Source: a virus. Taken from it: DNA of 43,784 nucleotides. The translations under genes were made by a program, and so were the position numbers. This document shows, one piece after another, positions 515 to 43,529 of the stretch; the stretch's first letter is position 1, and each line of letters starts with the position of its first letter. The notes under the pieces are model-generated. The model did no database searches, was not told the origin of the DNA, and saw nothing but the letters and a program-made list of their open reading frames with translations. Where the stretch lies: the IMG/VR virus record IMGVR_UViG_3300031223_000013, positions 1 through 43,784 of that record; one strand, given 5' to 3'.

Positions 515-1585
515 ATGCGTAAGTTTACTACTAAGATTAATGAATCTGAATCATCTATGACGTTTGACGATATGCTTTTAGAACTGCAAGGTTCGGGTTT
601 TATTATTCAAGAACTAAAACCAGGCTTAGTATATGAAGCAACACGGTCTAGCTTAACGATAAAGATTGAATGGGATGGTCAAAGAGAAGAAACAGTTAAG
701 GTTCAATCTAGTCAAGAAGATATGACAACAGAATGGCACCAAATGTCAATTGACAATATCGTGCTTTACTTAGACGGTCTAGAGGATGACACTACAGACA
801 ACGAAACCATTTCAGAACAGGCAAAAGATCGGATAACGCTAAAACAGGGTGAAGTGTATCTAATTAGCAAAGGCTCAATAGAGGCATATCATACATACAT
901 TGGATTCCGCAAAGACATGCACGAATTTGATAATTCTGGCACAGTCATCAAGCTTAGACCAGAAGAAATAACACCAGCAACAGTTATATTAGAGCACAGA
1001 ACGGTTGCTGCATTCTTGTCTGAGCAAGGTTATAGCCATATGCAAACTTCTAGTATGACAACAAACAACAAACATAAAAATATGAAATCATTATCACAAA
1101 GACTAAATGAAAGTCTAGGTTCTGCAAACTCTTCGTTTATGCTTAAACGAAAGGCAACAGTACAAGAAATTATTGAACTAGCAGGTAGCTTTACTAATGA
1201 TGACATTTCCAACATTGCAAAAGAAACTGAGGACCCGATGGAGGCTGCACAGCGTGTACTTGCTTGGTTAGACAACCAGCAGTGTCTGGCTTTTGGTCAA
1301 ATGCTAAAGTCATTCCGATTTGACAATGTTAGAGACATGGTTGGTGTTAGAGCAACAGGAAAAGTTGCACTACTGCTTGAAGGCTTAAATGAAGCAATGA
1401 CTATTAACATTAAAAAGTTAACGTCAATAGCAAAAGAGGCTGGTGAAACAAATCCAAAAAGTAAGAAAGAACTAAACGGTCTTGCAATTAAATACGGTAA
1501 CAAGGTGCCAGCAACTGAAGTTATAAAAATACTAAAAAGTTACGACATGTCTGAACTTATGGCGTCCGTTAATGAAAACAAATAA
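515..1585 (+). CDS. capsid-targeted cargo protein with a second internal targeting tag
   Basis: The 356-residue product begins MRKFTTKINES, which resembles T4 capsid-targeting sequences (T4 internal proteins begin MKTYQEFI.EA) that are cut by prohead protease after (L/I)xE; the predicted cut is after Ile-Asn-Glu at residues 8-10. A second complete tag, MKSLSQRLNES, starts at residue 190 (base 1082), preceded by an A-rich stretch that looks like a normal gene leader read through in frame. Residues about 215-270 form a helical domain (TVQEIIELAGSF...) similar to two regions of the 553-residue cargo protein at 2797. No enzyme motif is recognised. It is probably a virion internal protein made late; ATG at 515 is the start that puts the tag at the N-terminus. 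Confidence 0.85.
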   Translation: MRKFTTKINESESSMTFDDMLLELQGSGFIIQELKPGLVYEATRSSLTIKIEWDGQREETVKVQSSQEDMTTEWHQMSIDNIVLYLDGLEDDTTDNETISEQAKDRITLKQGEVYLISKGSIEAYHTYIGFRKDMHEFDNSGTVIKLRPEEITPATVILEHRTVAAFLSEQGYSHMQTSSMTTNNKHKNMKSLSQRLNESLGSANSSFMLKRKATVQEIIELAGSFTNDDISNIAKETEDPMEAAQRVLAWLDNQQCLAFGQMLKSFRFDNVRDMVGVRATGKVALLLEGLNEAMTINIKKLTSIAKEAGETNPKSKKELNGLAIKYGNKVPATEVIKILKSYDMSELMASVNENK

Positions 1586-2495: not shown

Positions 2496-2783
2496 ATGAA
2501 ATCACTAAGCAATCATATTAACGAATCAATGAGCGATACCAAATCGTTTGACTCTGAAAACATAAACGAATCTGCAATTATGGATGTCGTGTCTACAATG
2601 ACAACAAAAGAATTAGAAATGCTTGTCGGGGCAATAGGGTCAATAGGTCTTATCGCCAGCGCTACAGCAATGACTAAATTAGTTAGTTTCGTAAAAAAGA
2701 AAGGTGGTGCAACATCAAAAACTGTACTAGGAGCAATAGAAAAACTAGGTTTGGCTGCCGGCTCTGCTTCACAAATCAAATAA
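2496..2783 (+). CDS. small capsid-targeted cargo protein
   Basis: This 95-residue protein begins MKSLSNHINES, and a second site, ENINES, lies at residues 22-27, so a gp21-like protease could remove about 25 residues in two steps. The rest contains a hydrophobic, glycine-rich central stretch (LVGAIGSIGLIASATAMTKL, about residues 43-62) that could insert in a membrane or pack as a helical hairpin, then a basic segment (VKKKGGATSK). A small, cleaved, amphipathic protein packaged with DNA fits a T4 internal-protein role, but no homolog is recognised. It lies between other tagged genes with short spacers and has no Shine-Dalgarno sequence. Confidence 0.85.
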   Translation: MKSLSNHINESMSDTKSFDSENINESAIMDVVSTMTTKELEMLVGAIGSIGLIASATAMTKLVSFVKKKGGATSKTVLGAIEKLGLAAGSASQIK

Positions 2784-2796
2784 AACACAAAAACTC

Positions 2797-4458
2797 ATGA
2801 AATCACTATCACAAAAAATAAATGAAGCACTTCTTAACGAAGAAAAAAAGATCAACAGCAAAGAAGAATTTAAAGAATATGTTGACAAAGTATTGAAAAA
2901 AGCACATGGTGATGACTTTGATCAGGACATAGCAACGAAACTAATTGACGACTTGTCTGGTGATGTTGAAAACGATGACTGGTCTGAAGCAATTGGTCGA
3001 TTCCAGTCAGGCTTAGGTGAAAGTGTTGATCCGATGAACGAATCAGTACAAGATAAGATGGTTAAGGCAATGATTAAGGACAACAAAAACTTTAAGTGGC
3101 TTAATACAGAATTAGGTAAAGATTTTAGCATGTCAGAACTTAAAGCTTCATTAGAAAAAGAAGGCTATAGTTCAGAGTACGAGAAATACGCAAAAAAGTA
3201 CAATGTTTCTGAAAGTGCAAATGCAATGACAATAAAAGAAGTAATTAATATTGCAGCTCAATACTCTTCTGAAGATATGGACGACGTAGCAGATGCCGGC
3301 ATACCATTGCAGGATGCAATCGAAATTATGGCTGAAAGAATGGCAAGGAGTGAAGCCGCAATGTTTCGTAAAGAAATGTCAAAGTATACAATCACTGAAG
3401 ATGCAGAAGAAGTATATGCACTAGACAATGCAGCTTTCGTTAAGGACCTTGGCATTGAAACTATTGGCTCAGCAGAGTATGACAGACTAATACAAATAGG
3501 AACTAAAAAGTTTGGCCCACTTTCAGTAAAGGCTGCAATAGCAACAATTACTGATGAGGCAGACATTGTATATGAAAACTTAACGACTGGTGATAGAGTA
3601 CAAACCAATATGGGGCTTGGTACTGTTAATGCAATTGTTAATGGCACTGATATTGAAGTTACGCTTGATGATGCAGTCGATGGTGCAGGTGAAAAGGTTG
3701 CAACGTTTGACATATCAGAACTAGAAGTATATGCTGAATCACTGTATGAATCACTGTCAAACAGAGAAAAAACTTTAGCAACAAGGGCTGCAACGTTATT
3801 CTATGCAATCAGTGAGTCATCAAACAAATTTGCAGCGTATACTGCAAACGACCTAATAGTCAAATATGCGCATGACGATGGTGATGAGGTTGAAATGATG
3901 ATTGGTCGTCAATTGTCAGAGGGCAACATGACAATGTTTGAACTAACAAAGCTAGTCGAAGAACTAGTAAAACTTGCCAGTAAGTACAGTATCAACATTT
4001 CTGAAAACTTAACAGTTGGTGATAGAGTTGAAACCAATATGGGTCTTGGTACGGTTAATGCAATTGTTAATGGCACTGATATTGAAGTTGCACTAGATGA
4101 TGCAGTTGATGGTGCAGGTGAAAAGGTTGCCATGTTTGACCTGGACGACATAACAATGATTAACGAAAGTTTTTCATCAACAGATGTTGTATTCTTAGCA
4201 GGCAAATATTGCCCGCATGTCGATTTTAGCTTTCTCTTAAATAATCCACTGCCGGTAGACGAAATGATTACAAAGGCTGCAGAATGTATGGATGAAAAAG
4301 ACGCTAAGCTATTCAAAAATGTAGCAAATAAAAGATTTACAGGTAAAGGCAACCGTGGTAAAGATAATGCTAAAGCGAAATTTGCTCATAAGTTAATGGA
4401 CAGTCGTGACCTTTCCGAATCTGCAAGGCGTTTAAATAGAGGCAATATAATAAATTAA
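2797..4458 (+). CDS. large capsid-targeted cargo protein with duplicated SH3-like module
   Basis: The 553-residue protein starts MKSLSQKINEALLNEEKK, a targeting tag with a predicted cut after Ile-Asn-Glu (residues 8-10). Residues about 260-305 and 403-448 are near-identical copies of a 46-residue module (GDRVxTNMGLGTVNAIVNG...) with the look of a small SH3/KOW-like beta barrel. Two helical segments, beginning near residues 146 (MTIKEVINIAAQYSSEDM) and 463 (SSTDVVFLAGKYC), resemble each other and a domain of the protein at 515. Several further (I/L/V)xE-S/A sites occur, for example MINESF just after the second module, so multiple cleavage is possible. It looks like a cargo or scaffold-type protein built by module duplication. 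No catalytic motif is seen. Confidence 0.85.
   Translation: MKSLSQKINEALLNEEKKINSKEEFKEYVDKVLKKAHGDDFDQDIATKLIDDLSGDVENDDWSEAIGRFQSGLGESVDPMNESVQDKMVKAMIKDNKNFKWLNTELGKDFSMSELKASLEKEGYSSEYEKYAKKYNVSESANAMTIKEVINIAAQYSSEDMDDVADAGIPLQDAIEIMAERMARSEAAMFRKEMSKYTITEDAEEVYALDNAAFVKDLGIETIGSAEYDRLIQIGTKKFGPLSVKAAIATITDEADIVYENLTTGDRVQTNMGLGTVNAIVNGTDIEVTLDDAVDGAGEKVATFDISELEVYAESLYESLSNREKTLATRAATLFYAISESSNKFAAYTANDLIVKYAHDDGDEVEMMIGRQLSEGNMTMFELTKLVEELVKLASKYSINISENLTVGDRVETNMGLGTVNAIVNGTDIEVALDDAVDGAGEKVAMFDLDDITMINESFSSTDVVFLAGKYCPHVDFSFLLNNPLPVDEMITKAAECMDEKDAKLFKNVANKRFTGKGNRGKDNAKAKFAHKLMDSRDLSESARRLNRGNIIN
3574..3711 (+). repeat. 138-base internal duplication, copy 1
   Basis: This copy encodes residues about 260-305 of the cargo protein at 2797. 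By eye it differs from the copy at 4003-4140 at about 13 of 138 positions, with no gaps. Confidence 0.9.
4003..4140 (+). repeat. 138-base internal duplication, copy 2
   Basis: This is the second in-frame copy of the SH3-like module, 429 bases downstream of copy 1. The high identity suggests a recent duplication or gene conversion between copies. Confidence 0.9.
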
Positions 4459-4478: not shown

Positions 4479-4703
4479 ATGAACACTTTACAATCAAGAC
4501 TAAATGAAAGCTTCACGACAAATGAAGGTATCAGCAACACAAAAAACAAAATGGAACCCGCAGATCGTAAGGCCCTGGTTGGCATGTCAACCATTGAGGC
4601 TAAAGAATATTTAGAATTTCAAGGCTATGCACCTGCTTTTGTGAACAAGACGCTAATGAAAATGGTTAATGAAGGTAGTGTTAATATGATGCAAATGGAC
4701 TAG
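4479..4703 (+). CDS. small capsid-targeted cargo protein
   Basis: The 74-residue product begins MNTLQSRLNESFTTNEG, with a predicted cut after Leu-Asn-Glu at residues 8-10 and possibly a second near TNE. Its C-terminal 40 residues (KMEPADRKALVGMSTIEAKEYLEFQGYAPAFVNKTLMKM in outline) closely resemble the C-terminus of the next gene's product (EMDPADFGALMGM...YLDSKGYAPSFIETTLSKM). After trimming, little more than that shared domain would remain, so the domain is probably the functional unit, perhaps a small three-helix binding domain. No known family is recognised. Confidence 0.85.
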   Translation: MNTLQSRLNESFTTNEGISNTKNKMEPADRKALVGMSTIEAKEYLEFQGYAPAFVNKTLMKMVNEGSVNMMQMD

Positions 4704-4756: not shown

Positions 4757-5857
4757 ATGAAATCATTAAAATCACTTATTAACGAAAGCTTTGTAATAAA
4801 CGAAGCTTTCAGGTCTAAAATTATAAATGATCTTTTTAGTGCAAACCTAAAAAACAAGGAAATTCTTAAGCTAACATTTAATCAAAACCTAAATGCGCCT
4901 CTTAGTGAAATTCGTGACAGTGACAATAGCCTACCTGCTAACGCAGAAGATGCAATTAAAAGCTTAGATTCAATAAACAACTCTAAAGAAGTTAAATTCA
5001 TAGTCTTAACTAACCCAAAGACTAATGAAATTATTGCAATCGTTAGAGGCCAACAAAAAGATGGCAAAAAACTAATCAAGTTAATCTATTCAACTAAAAA
5101 GTCTAAGAAGTCAGACGAAGAAAGATTAAGAGGTGCAATGGCTAACAAAAAAGCAGTTAAGGGTTACGCGCTGACAGCAGACGCAAAGTATGTAGAAGCA
5201 TTCGACGAAAAGAAAAAGATACAACGTGCTAGCTATATGTACGACGATCCACTAAAAGTAGCAAAAAGAAGAAGAGATTATAAAATAAATAGCAAGAAAA
5301 CTGTACATAGTGAAAGAAACGCTGAACTTCAGGCAGGAAGCCACCCAGATATGTCAACTTCTGGCTGGTACTTTCCACCCTTTAGGGCTACATACCAAAA
5401 GCACAAACTTTTCATGAATCTGTCTAAGGATCGAGAAGGTGATATTGAGTTATCGATTGAAGTTGGTGAACCTGGTACTGGTTTTTATGCTGGTGCATTT
5501 AATTTTGTATTAGATTACAAAATGAAAATGCAAGAAATGACACAAAGCCCTGAAGAATCTAACATAGACGGCTTTGGACTTAACGAGTTCTTGAACAAGA
5601 TCATAGCAAGAAAAGGTTATTGGTTTGGTACAGACACTGCAGCTGACCCCGAAGAACTTGCTAGTGTAAACGTAGACAATTCTGGTGAACTTGCTAGAAT
5701 TAATAAACTTAAAAACAACACTAAAACCGAAATGGATCCTGCAGATTTTGGTGCCCTAATGGGAATGGCGTCTAAAGAAGAAGCACAGTCATACCTAGAC
5801 TCAAAAGGATATGCCCCTAGTTTTATTGAGACTACACTGTCTAAGATGAAATTTTAA
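4757..5857 (+). CDS. capsid-targeted cargo protein, 366 residues
   Basis: The protein begins MKSLKSLINESFVINEA with two consecutive Ile-Asn-Glu sites, at residues 8-10 and 14-16. The middle is lysine-rich and mixed in structure; residues about 75-95 (VKFIVLTNPKTNEIIAIVRG) look like a beta hairpin and residues about 115-185 are very basic, which could bind nucleic acid. The C-terminal 40 residues repeat the domain that makes up most of the preceding gene's product. A strong terminator follows 19 bases after the stop. The function is unknown; the tag and position argue for a packaged, possibly injected protein. Confidence 0.88.
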   Translation: MKSLKSLINESFVINEAFRSKIINDLFSANLKNKEILKLTFNQNLNAPLSEIRDSDNSLPANAEDAIKSLDSINNSKEVKFIVLTNPKTNEIIAIVRGQQKDGKKLIKLIYSTKKSKKSDEERLRGAMANKKAVKGYALTADAKYVEAFDEKKKIQRASYMYDDPLKVAKRRRDYKINSKKTVHSERNAELQAGSHPDMSTSGWYFPPFRATYQKHKLFMNLSKDREGDIELSIEVGEPGTGFYAGAFNFVLDYKMKMQEMTQSPEESNIDGFGLNEFLNKIIARKGYWFGTDTAADPEELASVNVDNSGELARINKLKNNTKTEMDPADFGALMGMASKEEAQSYLDSKGYAPSFIETTLSKMKF

Positions 5858-5914: not shown

Positions 5915-5973
5915 AAAATTTAACACTTTAAATTGTCATGCAACAACTAATTGTTATATATTTATATAACAAT
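5915..5973 (+). promoter_or_regulatory. early promoter repeat, copy 1
   Basis: This copy contains AAAATTTAACACTTTAAATT, then TTG (5933-5935), 21 bases and TATATTTA (5957-5964), which fits the Bacteroidota TTG/TAnnTTTG pattern except for the last base. The -7 region sits inside a perfect palindrome, TTGTTATATA-TT-TATATAACAA (5951-5972). The same block recurs upstream of five more small genes. Confidence 0.8.
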
Positions 5974-9168: not shown

Positions 9169-9450
9169 ATGAATGACTTTTTCGTAAACATGGAGTTTGC
9201 TAGTAAAGACTCTATAGAACATAAAATGTTTGGCTATCTAGAATTTAAAGAATACAGCAATTGCTTTGATGTTGGACAGTGCCAGGTTATGGACAGTCTA
9301 GTCACTATATACAGATGCAACATATACGATCACAGTTGCTGTACTATTGAGGACGATGTTTGGTTTTTCAAAAACATTGAAGAGACTTTTGACTGGTTAG
9401 CCTTGCATCTAAACTTGCCGAAAGGCGTTAACATTCTAGAAATAACATGA
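9169..9450 (+). CDS. small late protein of unknown function
   Basis: The 93-residue acidic protein (MNDFFVNMEFASKDSIEHKM) has several cysteines (for example CFDVGQC and CC) and aromatic residues and looks beta-rich. It follows a strong copy of the candidate late promoter and overlaps the next gene by the four bases ATGA, so the two are probably translationally coupled. A role with the next, structural-looking protein is likely, for example as chaperone or minor subunit, but this is inference. Confidence 0.75.
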   Translation: MNDFFVNMEFASKDSIEHKMFGYLEFKEYSNCFDVGQCQVMDSLVTIYRCNIYDHSCCTIEDDVWFFKNIEETFDWLALHLNLPKGVNILEIT

Positions 9451-10931
9451 TTAGACTTTCGCAATTAACCGCACTACACATAAGTGATCAAGACATAGCT
9501 CGAGACCTTGATGTGTCACCAAAATTATACCTGTACGAATCAAACCAGGCAGTACGTAAAGATAAACTTTTAGTTCAAGAAGACACTTCACCATTGCAAC
9601 AAATGACAAGAGGTGGCGCACTGGCAACAATGTTTTCTAATGTCCTGCTTGGTACTGCAAACTTTTATCCTGAGCAAGGCCTGTCAATAGATGACTATCA
9701 CACCGACAGTCTACTGCAAACAAAGCTGAACGATAGTACCCTGCCTGTTATTGAATATAAGCAGGCAACGCTTTACTTTAGTCAAGGCTCTTTGGCTGAC
9801 CAAACTGTACTTGGTCACTATGTACGTATTTTTTGCAAACTGTCAAATGGATCAGAAGTTACGTTAGCTTCAGTCGTTGACTTCTTAAACGATAGCGCAG
9901 TTACAGCACAAACACCTAAGCTTTTTGAGTCTCAGGTCTGGAATGAAGGTATTAAGATTGAATTTATAGACGTTGAGTATTTGCTTAATTCAGGAGTTAC
10001 TGAAATTGATGCAGTTAAAACTGCAATTTTTGGTAACAGTAGACCTACGGAGGTCATGATAGAGTATAGTGCATTTGGTGCTGACGCTGTAGACCAGTTT
10101 ACTCAAAATGGTTTTCAGTTTACTAGACTAAACTTTCAAGTTGTTAATCAACAAAGCTTTCCTGTTACATTCGAAACACAGGCACTAGTGGCTCAACTGT
10201 CACTAGACCAAGATGGTTTTGTTATTACATCTAGACTCATACATCAAAGATTTGATGTTACTGCATATCTCAATACACTGAAAGCAGAAGAAGAAACATA
10301 TAGGGTTGAACATCAGGTGCTTGTTACATCATATGACAGTTCAGATGTTTTACTTACAACGACAAAGCTTGCAATGCGAGCATTCGACGATCAGCCTTTT
10401 GATGGGCAGCTGCTAAGGCCTCTATGTGACCTGCAGGCTGATCACTTTAAGCTTGACGTTACGATTGTAGTACAAAATAGACAAACTGGTCTTACGCATA
10501 AGTCTTCAAATTCAATAGTTGTTACTGCTAACGAGGTCGGTAAATTTAAAGCTGCAGCAACAATTGAACTAACAGGCATGACTTCTGATATATTGCAAAC
10601 TGTTGTTAACAGACAAGTAAATCAAATAGTAACATCACCAGAAGTGCCACGCATTATTCAGCTAGAAAGAAAAGTGTATGTCATTGCTCAACCGTTAAAA
10701 GAATTGCAATTGATTGATGCAGACTTTACTGCAAGAATAACAGTTGCACAAGATGTTGCAGGTAACAGCAAGCTTTTCCTGCAAATAGATCAGTTAGTTA
10801 TTGAAAGCGAACAGTCTGAATTGCTAACTTTTATGATACCAAAGTTTGCATACAGCACAAATTCTGCTTCGTATACTTTGCTTGATCAAAATAGCAGGGC
10901 TATTTCTACTGGCAAAATAACTAAACAATAG
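9447..10931 (+). CDS. probable virion structural protein, 494 residues
   Basis: The product is rich in beta-strand patterns, Gln, Thr and Val, low in cysteine and lysine, and has no enzyme motif, as is usual for tail or baseplate proteins. The N-terminal 100 residues (including LQQMTRGGALATMFSNVLLG) look helical and could anchor it to other subunits, while the remainder resembles stacked beta domains of about 100 residues. It is preceded by the late-promoter motif at 9140 and ends at a bidirectional terminator facing the minus-strand gene. I do not recognise a specific T4 counterpart. Confidence 0.7.
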   Translation: MIRLSQLTALHISDQDIARDLDVSPKLYLYESNQAVRKDKLLVQEDTSPLQQMTRGGALATMFSNVLLGTANFYPEQGLSIDDYHTDSLLQTKLNDSTLPVIEYKQATLYFSQGSLADQTVLGHYVRIFCKLSNGSEVTLASVVDFLNDSAVTAQTPKLFESQVWNEGIKIEFIDVEYLLNSGVTEIDAVKTAIFGNSRPTEVMIEYSAFGADAVDQFTQNGFQFTRLNFQVVNQQSFPVTFETQALVAQLSLDQDGFVITSRLIHQRFDVTAYLNTLKAEEETYRVEHQVLVTSYDSSDVLLTTTKLAMRAFDDQPFDGQLLRPLCDLQADHFKLDVTIVVQNRQTGLTHKSSNSIVVTANEVGKFKAAATIELTGMTSDILQTVVNRQVNQIVTSPEVPRIIQLERKVYVIAQPLKELQLIDADFTARITVAQDVAGNSKLFLQIDQLVIESEQSELLTFMIPKFAYSTNSASYTLLDQNSRAISTGKITKQ

Positions 10932-10934
10932 CAC

Positions 10935-10970
10935 AAAAAAAGACTGCAATGTACAGTGCAGTCTTTTTTG
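10935..10970. terminator. bidirectional terminator between converging genes
   Basis: AGACTGCA and TGCAGTCT form an 8-base stem around an eight-base loop with an A run on the left and a T run on the right, so it can end transcription from both directions. Confidence 0.9.
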
Positions 10971-10976
10971 TTTTTC

Positions 10977-11915
10977 TTACTTTTCTTCGAAAGTTATCTT
11001 AATTTTTGGTTCAAAATCAGATGGCAGTTGATCAACAATGCCCTTAAAGTTTTCAGTGTAGTTTTTCATAATTACAAGGTGAAAGCTGTTGTTCTTTGGA
11101 TCAAGAATCATTTGTGATGTTGTTGCAAGTTTTTTAGTTGTTCTTAAAGGATTAAGATTCGATTCAGACTTAAATGGCTGCTCTCTCATATTAACTAAAA
11201 TGTCAGCAGTCGATAGACTATCTCCTAGTATTTGCTCAGATTTTGTTTTTCTTGTCGTTGATGATTTAAAATTAGGACCTTCTGTATAGCCAGCCTCTGC
11301 ATGAATATCTGAATGATTAGTATACACCACTGTATCTAAGCCATCTAGTGAAGTTGTAACAGCAGGGTGTTCTGATGTTGAACTAATAGTGTACAATTGA
11401 TCGTCATTAGCAATAATCGTATTACCGTGGATGCCTGTTTTCCAAGTCTTAGCAAAGTGTAATGCATCTTCTATCGTTTGCATTGTTAGCGCCTTGATTA
11501 TTTTTTCACCGTCAGCAGATGTCTTAGTATCAACTTTTCTACCTTTAGCCTTGTCGTCTTTACCTTTTTTACCTTTGTCAGTGCCTATGTTTTCATCTGC
11601 TAGGCTTAATGATGAGTTGACAATACAAATACCATTAGCATTCATACCTTCACTCCAGCCAGTATCATCATCTCTTAGGTATACAACTTCCATGCCGTTA
11701 ATTACTGTATGGACAATTGAACAATTGACGTTGTATGCTCGATCTCTATGCTTTACAATAACATAAGATTTTGATGCCGCTTCGTCATGTTCGCCTTTAT
11801 CGTTAATTGTAAGACGTCTTGCTGCTATAACACATTCGTTAATGGCATTAGCAGTTGCTGAATTTAGCTTTTTTAGTGACTCGTTCATGAAAAATGACAG
11901 TGGCTTCATATTCAA
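10977..11915 (-). CDS. capsid-targeted NTN hydrolase (C45/acyltransferase-like)
   Basis: This is the only confident minus-strand gene. Its 312 residues begin MNMKPLSFFMNES; starting at the second Met (base 11909) gives a standard tag, MKPLSFFMNES. A second site, Ile-Asn-Glu at residues 25-27, is followed directly by Cys28. Downstream features fit cysteine N-terminal-nucleophile hydrolases of the penicillin-acylase/AAT type: KHRDR (55-59), DTGWSEGMNANGICIVNSSL (84-103), a helix TIEDALHFAK, GNTIIANDDQLYTI (164-177) and TNH (199-201). Such enzymes need a free N-terminal Cys, which protease cleavage after Glu27 would supply. A lysine-rich linker (about 112-130) is an unusual insertion. The substrate is unknown, probably an amide bond. 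The fold call is by motif recognition only. Confidence 0.8.
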   Translation of the reverse strand: MNMKPLSFFMNESLKKLNSATANAINECVIAARRLTINDKGEHDEAASKSYVIVKHRDRAYNVNCSIVHTVINGMEVVYLRDDDTGWSEGMNANGICIVNSSLSLADENIGTDKGKKGKDDKAKGRKVDTKTSADGEKIIKALTMQTIEDALHFAKTWKTGIHGNTIIANDDQLYTISSTSEHPAVTTSLDGLDTVVYTNHSDIHAEAGYTEGPNFKSSTTRKTKSEQILGDSLSTADILVNMREQPFKSESNLNPLRTTKKLATTSQMILDPKNNSFHLVIMKNYTENFKGIVDQLPSDFEPKIKITFEEK

Positions 11916-11934: not shown

Positions 11935-11946
11935 TAATATGTATAC
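11935..11946 (-). promoter_or_regulatory. candidate late promoter on the minus strand
   Basis: Read on the minus strand, the sequence is GTATACATATTA, 20-31 bases before the minus-strand hydrolase start. It matches the plus-strand late-promoter copies exactly, which supports the motif because it flips with the gene. Confidence 0.6.
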
Positions 11947-22714: not shown

Positions 22715-22954
22715 ATGAAATCATTAACAGCACGCATTAACGAAAGCTTTATCACAGAAGCAATTTCAGTCACAAAAGGCCATTTCGACAAGTACTTTAA
22801 GTTAATAGCCAAAGACATTGGTGCAAGAAGTTACGACGTCAATATAAAAGATGGTCTTACGGAAGTCAAATTTGATAACAGTCTTAGCCTTTATGTTGCA
22901 ATTGACAACGACCAGACTGGTCGACTGGTTGCATATTCAGTAGAAGGTGTCTAA
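22715..22954 (+). CDS. small capsid-targeted cargo protein
   Basis: The 79-residue product begins MKSLTARINESFITEAISVT, with consecutive Ile-Asn-Glu and Ile-Thr-Glu sites (8-10 and 13-15). The remaining 64 residues look like a compact alpha-beta domain (YDVNIKDGLTEVKFDNSLSL forms predicted strands). This is a tagged gene far from the main cargo cluster, surrounded by small genes. The GTATACATATG at its start is too close to the ATG to be its promoter. The function is unknown. Confidence 0.8.
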   Translation: MKSLTARINESFITEAISVTKGHFDKYFKLIAKDIGARSYDVNIKDGLTEVKFDNSLSLYVAIDNDQTGRLVAYSVEGV

Positions 22955-28995: not shown

Positions 28996-29017
28996 TTTTT
29001 TATATATTTATATAACA
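28996..29017 (+). promoter_or_regulatory. core-only copy of the early promoter repeat
   Basis: TTTTTATATATTTATATAAC keeps the -7 core and right palindrome arm but not the upstream AACACTTTAA box. The downstream leader (CACCAAAAGATATTGGTTAA) matches that of copy 6. Confidence 0.6.
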
Positions 29018-32727: not shown

Positions 32728-33294
32728 ATGAAAACATTAAAACAACACATAACCGAAAGCTTTCATGTATCAGAGGCTGCTAATTTTATTGCAACCACAA
32801 CATTAAAGCCTGGCGATAACTTGTCTAAATTTAAGGATGCACTACAGACTGATGATGGTTCAATAGGCAGTAGAGGCTTAAACAGTAAAGTGCTTAAGCA
32901 AGTCGAAAAAGAAATGGACAATAAAAATTCCAACATAGAAAAAATTGAGATTAGTGACAGTGGATACTTTTATATTTATACGGTTGACGATGGAATTTTT
33001 GACCCAGCCAATATGGAAGTACATAGTGAATGGATTGTTGGTGAACCTAGAACGCAAGAACGATTAGCGCAAGACATTGTAAAGAAATGGGCTTTTGACT
33101 TACGAGACGGTACAGCTATTAGCTGGGTATCAAATTCAAACTGGAACTATCATGAAAAGTCACGTTCAGAACAAACAGGAATTAATAAATTTGACTTACT
33201 AGTTAATGGTAAAGTAATTGGTAATGGTAAAGATGCAAATGCAATATTGTCTGTTATCAAGTCAAATATTAGATTGTTTAAAGACTTAAAGTAA
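32728..33294 (+). CDS. capsid-targeted cargo protein, 188 residues
   Basis: The product begins MKTLKQHITESFHVSEAANF, with candidate cuts after Ile-Thr-Glu (8-10) and Val-Ser-Glu (14-16). The mature domain of about 170 residues looks alpha-beta, with a likely sheet in KIEISDSGYFYIYTVDDGIF and a Trp-rich segment around AISWVSNSNWNYHEKS. No active-site pattern is recognised. A strong terminator follows, and the virion module begins directly after it, which fits late expression of a packaged protein. Confidence 0.82.
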   Translation: MKTLKQHITESFHVSEAANFIATTTLKPGDNLSKFKDALQTDDGSIGSRGLNSKVLKQVEKEMDNKNSNIEKIEISDSGYFYIYTVDDGIFDPANMEVHSEWIVGEPRTQERLAQDIVKKWAFDLRDGTAISWVSNSNWNYHEKSRSEQTGINKFDLLVNGKVIGNGKDANAILSVIKSNIRLFKDLK

Positions 33295-41669: not shown

Positions 41670-43529
41670 ATGGCTAAAAAATCTACTGTTTCGACAATGC
41701 AAGTTCCAGGTATTACTAACTACGCTAAGCTAAGAAACGCAAACACGAAAGCAACACAAATACATAGGTTCAACCCATTTATGACTCAAATGTATGCAGA
41801 AAAAGCACACAAGCAAAGTGAAGCTGATAGTTTAGATGCAAGATATCTAGATGAAGATATATACAGTCAATTGCTATCTATGCAAAATACTGGTAGACAC
41901 AGAAATGGTAAACGAACTACATACTATGGCTTAAATAGTAAATCAAAACGAGACCAACTTATTCGCTTAAGTGTACATGATGTTGTCGATGAAGTCCTAA
42001 CTAAACTAACTGATGAAGTAGTAGTTGCTACTAAAATAAAGGACCCGATTGTCCTACAATTAGACACAACAAAATTTGACGCTCAAAAGTTAGATAAAGA
42101 ATTTCAAAAACAACTACAAGAATACGCAATAGAGCAGTTTGGTCGAATAATGAAAATGTATGGTTTTGGTAACCAAGGCACACAATATTCACTTTGGAAC
42201 CGAGTGTATCTTTTCTTAATCGAAGGTTCACAATCATACGAAATGGTTTGGGACGACTTAAACAATCCTAAAAAGATCATTGCAATTCACGAAATTGACC
42301 CTTTAGAACTTGAACAATTTTATGCAAAAGGTGTCAAGTATTGGAAACATCACAGGACTATGGGTCGAAAAAATGACTACATACTAATGTATGACTCTCA
42401 AATAATAAAAATTGACTGGTCAGATGCTTCACCAAACAACAGAGTTAGTTATTTAGAACACTTGCTAAAATCGTTTAATGATCTTAGAATCATGGACGAA
42501 TCAACCCTCATTAGCACAGTAACAAACTCAGTTTTTCGTATGATTGTTAAGGTTCCGACTGCCGGTAAAGGTCGAATTGCTGCAGCCCAAACACTTGCTG
42601 AAACAAAGCACATGTATAATGATGATATACAATACGATGCTGAATCTGGAGAACTAAACATTAATGGTACAGCAAACCAAATGATGATGAAAACGTACTG
42701 GATGTCAGATGGTGATAGTGGTACGCCAGAAGTGCAAACTGTTGGAAATGATGGTGGTGTTCAAATAGACACAAATAAAAATGAGTACTTTTCCAGAAGA
42801 TTTTACCAGGCAGCAAGAATGCCTTACAGTAGATTTGACTCTAACTCCTCAGACAGTTGGAATATGGACACAAGATCACAATTAAGAGAGGAAATTACGT
42901 TTGGTCGATTTGTGTCAAGAATTCAAGACATAGTACAAATGCTAATTCTTAAACCTTTGTATATGCAGCTTGCTGCAAGGTTCCCTGAAATTAAAGATGA
43001 TGATTCTATACTAGACGCAATTAAAGTTCAATTTAATTCATATTCAGTTTTTGAAGAGTTAATGCAACTTGACGTACTAAAAGAAAAAGTTGAATCTATC
43101 GGTCGAATCAGAGAAGCATTTACATCTAGAACACCAGATGGTGAAGAACTTAAATATTGGTCAGATGAGTTCTTAATCAACGAGTACTTACCAGAAATGA
43201 ACAAACAAAAACTCGATCTTAACGCTAAAATGGCGGCACAAGAAAGAGAAAACATGATGGAATATCAACTTAGACAATACTTAATGAAGACTAAGTATGA
43301 TCCACAAACAAACTTTGACCCTGAAACCGGACTGCCTATTAGCGACCTAGCAAAAAGAATAGAAGATGAAATACAAGATAAGTCAGATATTGACAATGAA
43401 TCTAGTCAACAGTCAACAGTAAAAGATGAAGTTGATGACGATCAAACCGAAGTTATTTCTTCTGATGAAGTTGATGGCGATGGCAAAGTCAAAGACAAAG
43501 ACGGCAAGAAAGACAAAGATGAAGACTAA
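41670..43529 (+). CDS. portal vertex protein, T4 gp20-like
   Basis: The portal forms the dodecameric ring through which DNA enters and leaves the head. The 619 residues (T4 gp20 has 524) follow the gp20 layout: a central region DLRIMDESTLISTVTNSVFR and FRMIVKVPTAGKGRIAAAQT (the T4 pattern is ED.LVIYRI.RAPERR...D.G.......A), then GELNINGTANQMMMKTYWMS, then FSRRFYQAARMPYSRFDSNS and REEITFGRFVSRIQDIVQML, and the SVFEELMQLDVLKEKVESIG segment. The C-terminus is a charged, disordered tail (DGKVKDKDGKKDKDED). The long tail is unusual. It has its own candidate late promoter. Confidence 0.93.
   Translation: MAKKSTVSTMQVPGITNYAKLRNANTKATQIHRFNPFMTQMYAEKAHKQSEADSLDARYLDEDIYSQLLSMQNTGRHRNGKRTTYYGLNSKSKRDQLIRLSVHDVVDEVLTKLTDEVVVATKIKDPIVLQLDTTKFDAQKLDKEFQKQLQEYAIEQFGRIMKMYGFGNQGTQYSLWNRVYLFLIEGSQSYEMVWDDLNNPKKIIAIHEIDPLELEQFYAKGVKYWKHHRTMGRKNDYILMYDSQIIKIDWSDASPNNRVSYLEHLLKSFNDLRIMDESTLISTVTNSVFRMIVKVPTAGKGRIAAAQTLAETKHMYNDDIQYDAESGELNINGTANQMMMKTYWMSDGDSGTPEVQTVGNDGGVQIDTNKNEYFSRRFYQAARMPYSRFDSNSSDSWNMDTRSQLREEITFGRFVSRIQDIVQMLILKPLYMQLAARFPEIKDDDSILDAIKVQFNSYSVFEELMQLDVLKEKVESIGRIREAFTSRTPDGEELKYWSDEFLINEYLPEMNKQKLDLNAKMAAQERENMMEYQLRQYLMKTKYDPQTNFDPETGLPISDLAKRIEDEIQDKSDIDNESSQQSTVKDEVDDDQTEVISSDEVDGDGKVKDKDGKKDKDED

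Follow-up and report, generated by a model that had tools for sequence, protein, structure and literature searches.

A phage Ntn hydrolase with a candidate prohead-protease site directly before its predicted catalytic cysteine

Prohead proteases are known to trim scaffold, shell proteins and packaging tags, and the T4 scaffold is chopped into peptides. The T4 protease gp21 cleaves after L/I-x-E, releasing N-terminal propeptides that range from 7 residues in the packaged enzyme Alt to 65 residues in gp23, and both the Alt ADP-ribosyltransferase and the internal proteins IPI-IPIII are head-packaged and gp21-processed (PMC9026906). With an aspartyl residue in place of the Glu at the T4 site, processing stops although targeting is retained (PMC9026906). 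Packaged phage enzymes, gp21-type trimming and Ntn hydrolases are each already known. Among the open-access papers searched, we found none joining phage, Ntn hydrolase and prohead protease, and with the search terms used no mention of such an enzyme was found in the papers on MA9V and on jumbo phages. Here we describe a gene from a viral stretch of 43,784 nucleotides (IMG/VR record IMGVR_UViG_3300031223_000013, hereafter the window), which derives from a phage of the T4 superfamily, probably a jumbo phage and probably one infecting Flavobacteria. The fold of its product, the position of the nucleophile, the conservation of the cut motif and the agreement of that motif with the rule that head proteases of related phages appear to follow were computed in this study.

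The gene occupies an open reading frame on the minus strand at 10977-11915, where an earlier note on this DNA had placed it, and the features listed there, namely a tag, INE↓C (the arrow marks a predicted cut), KHRDR, DTGWSEGMNANG, GNTIIAND and TNH, were all found in the same order. Translation from the ATG at 11909 (10977..11909, 310 aa) appears a better choice than from the alternative in-frame TTG at 11915, because the capsid-tag-like sequence MKPLSFFMNES (11877..11909) is then fully N-terminal and in the same register as in other tagged genes (MKSLSNHINES, MKSLSQKINEA, MKSLKSLINES, MKSLTARINES and MKTLKQHITES). The cysteine that the note counted as Cys28 from the TTG is the same residue as Cys26 from the ATG. 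Its codon (11832..11834) encodes the predicted N-terminal nucleophile, the three codons directly 5' of it (11835..11843) encode Ile23-Asn24-Glu25, a predicted prohead-protease site, and the predicted mature Ntn-hydrolase domain spans residues 26-310 (10980..11834). Since the tag itself ends in a site of the form (M/I/L)xE↓(S/A), as the T4 capsid targeting sequence also ends in a cut site, the leader is predicted to be cut at two places, MNE↓S and INE↓C. A terminator hairpin on the minus strand (10930..10985, -16.7 kcal/mol, z -3.97) lies between the convergent gene ends.

The tag is not peculiar to this gene. The pattern M[KNR]xLxxx[ILM]xE[SAG] was found at the N-terminus of 7 of the 52 coding sequences of the window, and at most one match was obtained in any of 500 within-leader shuffles, so that the capsid tag proposed in the note exceeds chance and recurs on further proteins of this phage, as expected of T4-type head-packaged protease substrates. 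The six further coding sequences that match, all on the plus strand, begin MKSLSNHINE↓S (2496..2783), MKSLSQKINE↓A (2797..4458), MNTLQSRLNE↓S (4479..4703), MKSLKSLINE↓SFVINE↓A (4757..5857), MKSLTARINE↓SFITE↓A (22715..22954) and MKTLKQHITE↓SFHVSE↓A (32728..33294). A plus-strand frame at 515..1585, which has the element TATACATAT at -40, begins MRKFTTKINE↓S and carries a second in-frame tag, MKSLSQRLNE↓S, at 1082. A similar mid-frame tag, MKSLRNHITES, occurs at 2082 within the frame at 1572-2423. These two cases look as if tagged proteins had been fused or internal starts were used, and the head protease could split the halves at their internal (I/L)xE sites.

Evidence for the fold comes from predicted models of two proteins, the window enzyme and a relative from a distant clade (L169) that is 37% identical to it. 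The AlphaFold2 model of the window enzyme (pLDDT 82.6, pTM 0.83) gave isopenicillin N acyltransferase as the top PDB match in Foldseek (2x1c, E 2.9e-8); CV2077, NAAA and bile salt hydrolases ranked next. VIA-align superposed 213 residues on CV2077 at 2.6 A with a Z of 21.1, and NAAA and acid ceramidase gave Z values of about 20 and 19.6. Many of the VIA alignments start at model residue 26, paired with ASAH1 143, BSH 2 and mature PVA 1, which are the nucleophiles of human acid ceramidase, the bile salt hydrolases and penicillin V acylase, respectively. In the model of the distant relative, Cys21 was aligned to IAT 103, NAAA 126, ASAH1 143 and BSH 2. The NTN fold anticipated by the note was obtained in both AlphaFold2 models, which predict an Ntn (alpha-beta-beta-alpha) hydrolase whose nucleophilic Cys, Cys26 and Cys21 respectively, opens the first core strand. 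The sequence models score the protein less clearly: 20.9 bits for Pfam AAT (PF03417), under the gathering cut-off of 23.2, and 28.8 (E 7e-7) for the NCBIfam model C45_proenzyme (NF040521), short of the curated cut-off of 85. We therefore rejected filing it under either family, its scores lying below both cut-offs. One relative, L030, reached 24.6 for Pfam AAT, above the cut-off of 23.2, and 53.4 for NF040521, a model matched by 28 of the 37 aligned family members. Searches of PHROGs and PADLOC gave no match for the window protein, and a PDB sequence search with the family profile returned chance matches only. The fold together with the weak family-model scores suggests kinship to the known structures; the window protein is a phage-specific branch of Ntn hydrolases resembling the C45/AAT families.

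Relatives were confirmed on at least 461 viral contigs in one scan, and orthologues are present in two cultured phages, the Chryseobacterium phages MA9V-1 and MA9V-2. Two pattern scans of genome contigs (84,980 species) yielded no cellular relatives, a plasmid tblastn found none, and a scan of viral sequences with the MA9V-2 orthologue alone as query gave no matches. For analysis of the leaders, 111 distinct mature domains were grouped into 59 clusters at 90% identity. Cys26, K53, R55, D56, N198 and R256 are invariant over the 59 clusters, the last five being candidate catalytic partners assigned by motif order. The residues before the Cys take two forms only. In 53 of the 59 clusters the Cys follows a leader with Glu at P1 in every case, P3 being Leu in 25, Ile in 24, Val in 2, Met in 1 and Phe in 1, while P2 is any of ten different residues and P4-P5 are widely variable; a motif of the (I/L)xE type thus stands at the predicted mature N-terminus in the window (INE↓C) and across the 53 clusters. 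The residue after the Glu, which the note expected to be Cys, Ser or Thr, is Cys in all 53 leader clusters of the homologue alignment. In the other six clusters the Cys comes directly after the initiator Met. The leaders are unrelated in sequence and range from 4 to over 25 residues (e.g. MINE, MKLSE, MSKPVTE, MPQLFDRIILGE and MKNLIRSILNEELHREVIHE). Many relatives have a leader of only 4-7 residues, like the first three examples, with no recognisable tag, and in the distant clade a tag with a second site appears again (MKNLIRSILNE↓ELHREVIHE↓C). At least three changes between the Glu-leader and the Met-Cys forms are required on a tree built from sequences minus leader and nucleophile. As the leaders vary in all but hydrophobic-x-Glu and can be replaced by Met alone, they point to selection for release of an N-terminal Cys, and the alternation of the two forms suggests that yielding this residue is what the motif serves. 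On one Met-Cys contig (G002), tag-like N-termini showed no excess over shuffling (2 observed, 2.4 expected). In L030 (1629-3152), the Ntn hydrolase is fused C-terminally to a domain matching phrog_7595 (E 2e-8), possibly another route of virion attachment.

The window ends with a T4 gp20-type portal gene (41670..43529, plus strand), whose product is 50% identical to the portal of Tenacibaculum phage PTm1, and the protease and capsid genes of the phage fall beyond the contig. A portal scan for a longer copy found only one identical contig, which runs about 0.9 kb further and stops before the protease. The cut rule was read from related phages, where capsid cut sites were assigned from sequence. 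An S77-type protease is annotated in both PTm1 and MA9V-2. In PTm1 protease and scaffold are fused, and its capsid protein shows the candidate site GIINE↓SYGSQG; MA9V-2 likewise has a protease-scaffold, and candidate sites in its capsid protein are EFINE↓AAP and GGFLNE↓SII. The motif [ILVF]NE[SA] occurs 12 times in the scaffold/protease of MA9V-2, where shuffles give a mean of 0.32 and at most 3, and 6 times in that of PTm1 (mean 0.14, max 2). Several MA9V-2 genes, among them the one that separates portal and protease, carry a tag, MK(N/T)F..FINE↓(S/A). The N-terminus of the MA9V-2 enzyme, MLKTFTNMTSADNNAFINE↓C, equals this tag plus an insertion, with the cut site abutting the nucleophile. Capsid sites in other groups read QLLSE↓A, QLLDE↓A and QLVTE↓A, and on contig G033 the same tripeptide precedes both cuts, VTE↓A in the capsid and VTE↓C in the enzyme. 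Peptidase S77 (PF03420) was found on 20 of the 37 contigs that bear the enzyme, and short fragments make up much of the remainder. It is present on all tested enzyme-bearing contigs above 82 kb but G019, G032 and G034; the three longer contigs that lack a match measure 213, 153 and 85 kb.

Two further details of these genomes were observed. The GenBank start of MA9V2_239, the enzyme of MA9V-2, at 192781 (OR513085.1:192760-193605; L102:42760-43605) lies seven codons downstream of an ATG and is probably too late, the upstream ATG restoring an MKTFT-type tag. A contig that extends the window past 43784 carries a post-portal frame (L094:11870-12997) with the motif YGQQxPSAxxGxGAV, and PTm1 ORF-299 has the same post-portal position and the same motif, which is also seen close to where the mature capsid protein of PTm1 is predicted to begin.

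For the window protein we infer packaging, cleavage, their timing, delivery and the kind of substrate as follows. The gene would encode a cysteine Ntn hydrolase with an AAT / acid-ceramidase / PVA-like fold, made as an inactive precursor and carried into the prohead by its N-terminal tag. There the S77 prohead protease of the phage would cleave after (I/L)xE at both sites of the leader, and the cut at INE↓C would leave Cys26 as a free N-terminal nucleophile. The enzyme would gain competence during head maturation and probably enter the next host together with the DNA, there to hydrolyse an acyl-amide bond or transfer its acyl group. We regard this account as a whole, from tag-borne precursor through activation by the prohead protease at head maturation to delivery, as likely. 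Among the readings considered, the one in which the prohead protease activates the enzyme has the best support, since the cut site matches the scaffold, capsid and tag sites of related phages.

The main rival is autoproteolysis, in which Cys26 of the folded precursor attacks the Glu25 carbonyl, (I/L)xE is a requirement of self-cleavage and the tag serves packaging only. Ntn hydrolases often autoprocess, and the structural neighbours NAAA, acid ceramidase and IAT do cleave themselves; the nearest NCBIfam model, the one matched by 28 of 37 members, is named 'autoproteolytic', and the Glu at P1 could belong to such a reaction. Conservation of P3 and P1 with a free P2 is, however, the exact head-protease rule, and it is kept across unrelated leaders of 4 to more than 25 residues. 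Moreover, the enzyme site of MA9V-2 is the tag's own FINE site, and to our knowledge none of IAT, PVA, NAAA and acid ceramidase has a Glu directly before the nucleophile. We consider self-cleavage unlikely on these grounds. Less probable still is that the head protease only strips a packaging tag from a protein that is a structural passenger, or that acts in the head without a free Cys. T4 internal proteins lose their tags in the same way without becoming enzymes (PMC9026906), yet Cys26, K53, R55, D56, N198 and R256 are as invariant as expected for an active enzyme, and the Met-Cys relatives retain these residues with no tag to strip, which makes such a role very doubtful.

The surroundings of the gene were compared as well. 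The element TATACATAT (11937..11945, minus strand), a putative late promoter, stands 36 bases 5' of the enzyme ATG. In this comparison, made after the fact, seven copies were found in the window, against 0.98 expected and no more than 3 in any of 100 shuffles, and copies lie 28-40 bases upstream of the ATG of the portal gene, two tagged genes, the gene at 9169 and the window enzyme; TATACATAT is suggestive of a late promoter common to head genes. In MA9V-2, GTATACATAC is found upstream of both the protease and the enzyme genes. A different, long repeated promoter-like element, TTGTCAT...CACTAATTGTTATATATTTATATAACA, occurs on the plus strand near 5955, 6327, 7704, 8600, 24967 and 25866, with a partial copy at 29001; it precedes non-tagged genes and is perhaps an early promoter. 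In the L018 and L045 groups the enzyme gene directly precedes that of the terminase large subunit, which in L018 is followed by the portal, and in L055 and L008 it comes after genes starting MISLKSLLKE, MIRLTKILKE or MISLKDILSE. On the 290-kb contig G018 the gene is located within a long run of tagged genes. This run (L232-L246, about 196930-257575) covers 60 kb with N-termini such as MKNLIRSILNE, MKKIIRNILHE, MKIIITEKQ and MKRIVRLTESDLARIVRRVIREE, and so many such N-termini suggest that tagged proteins, perhaps packaged in the head, form a large set there. An ordinary cytosolic phage hydrolase, trimmed by a host or other protease during infection and not packaged, would suit the common tagless short leaders and the independence of the Met-Cys relatives from the phage protease, but is highly improbable given the tag on the window gene, the tag-gene neighbourhoods of relatives and the putative late promoter common to the portal.

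The layout of a cut site followed by Cys is kept in nearly all viral relatives, so that activation by the prohead protease would probably switch the enzyme on only when particles are built. While the Ntn fold and the Cys after Glu proposed in the earlier note stand, its view that the enzyme is silent in the infected cell does not hold as a general rule: six clusters start Met-Cys, and these relatives are predicted to become active after ordinary Met removal. Silence until assembly was therefore rejected as a family-wide property. Since Met-Cys relatives are also found in phages with S77, activation by the protease is dispensable for the fold. On balance we think it probable that this is a widespread phage family in which the capsid-maturation protease acts as a zymogen activator, the (I/L)xE↓Cys cut making the catalytic residue, activity being locked to virion assembly and the enzyme injected active, and in which Met-Cys sub-lineages dropped the lock and use Met removal.

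If confirmed, a prohead cut would make the catalytic residue of a cargo enzyme and couple activation to virion assembly, and (I/L)xE↓Cys beside a tag would be a sequence signature for assembly-activated cargo. The analysis also brings out a conserved enzyme family, so far without annotation, that is spread over hundreds of viral contigs. No virion proteomics was found in the literature, the MA9V-1 paper giving SDS-PAGE only; MA9V-1 and MA9V-2 are cultured phages that allow a direct test. Their orthologue, with FLNE or FINE before the Cys, bears no annotation beyond 'hypothetical protein'. The nearest portal is that of PTm1, whose capsid protein has INE↓S sites; no orthologue of the window enzyme was found in PTm1. 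Among cellular enzymes, the C45/AAT families (PF03417, NF040521; isopenicillin N acyltransferase, acid ceramidase, NAAA) share the fold, motif order and nucleophile position; they are described as self-cleaving, whereas the leader of the phage family, 1 to about 25 residues long, has the motif of a phage protease at its end. Penicillin V acylase and bile salt hydrolase, of the choloylglycine hydrolase family, have the same fold as well, and for some of them, as for the six Met-Cys clusters, loss of the Met is all that is required, but they are metabolic enzymes without a head-protease site. T4 Alt and the internal proteins resemble the window enzyme in an N-terminal propeptide that ends in (I/L)xE and is a target of the prohead protease, as predicted for the window enzyme, and Alt is likewise a packaged enzyme delivered to the host. 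We know of no requirement for the cut to form a catalytic residue in Alt or the internal proteins; in the window enzyme, by contrast, the cut would create it.
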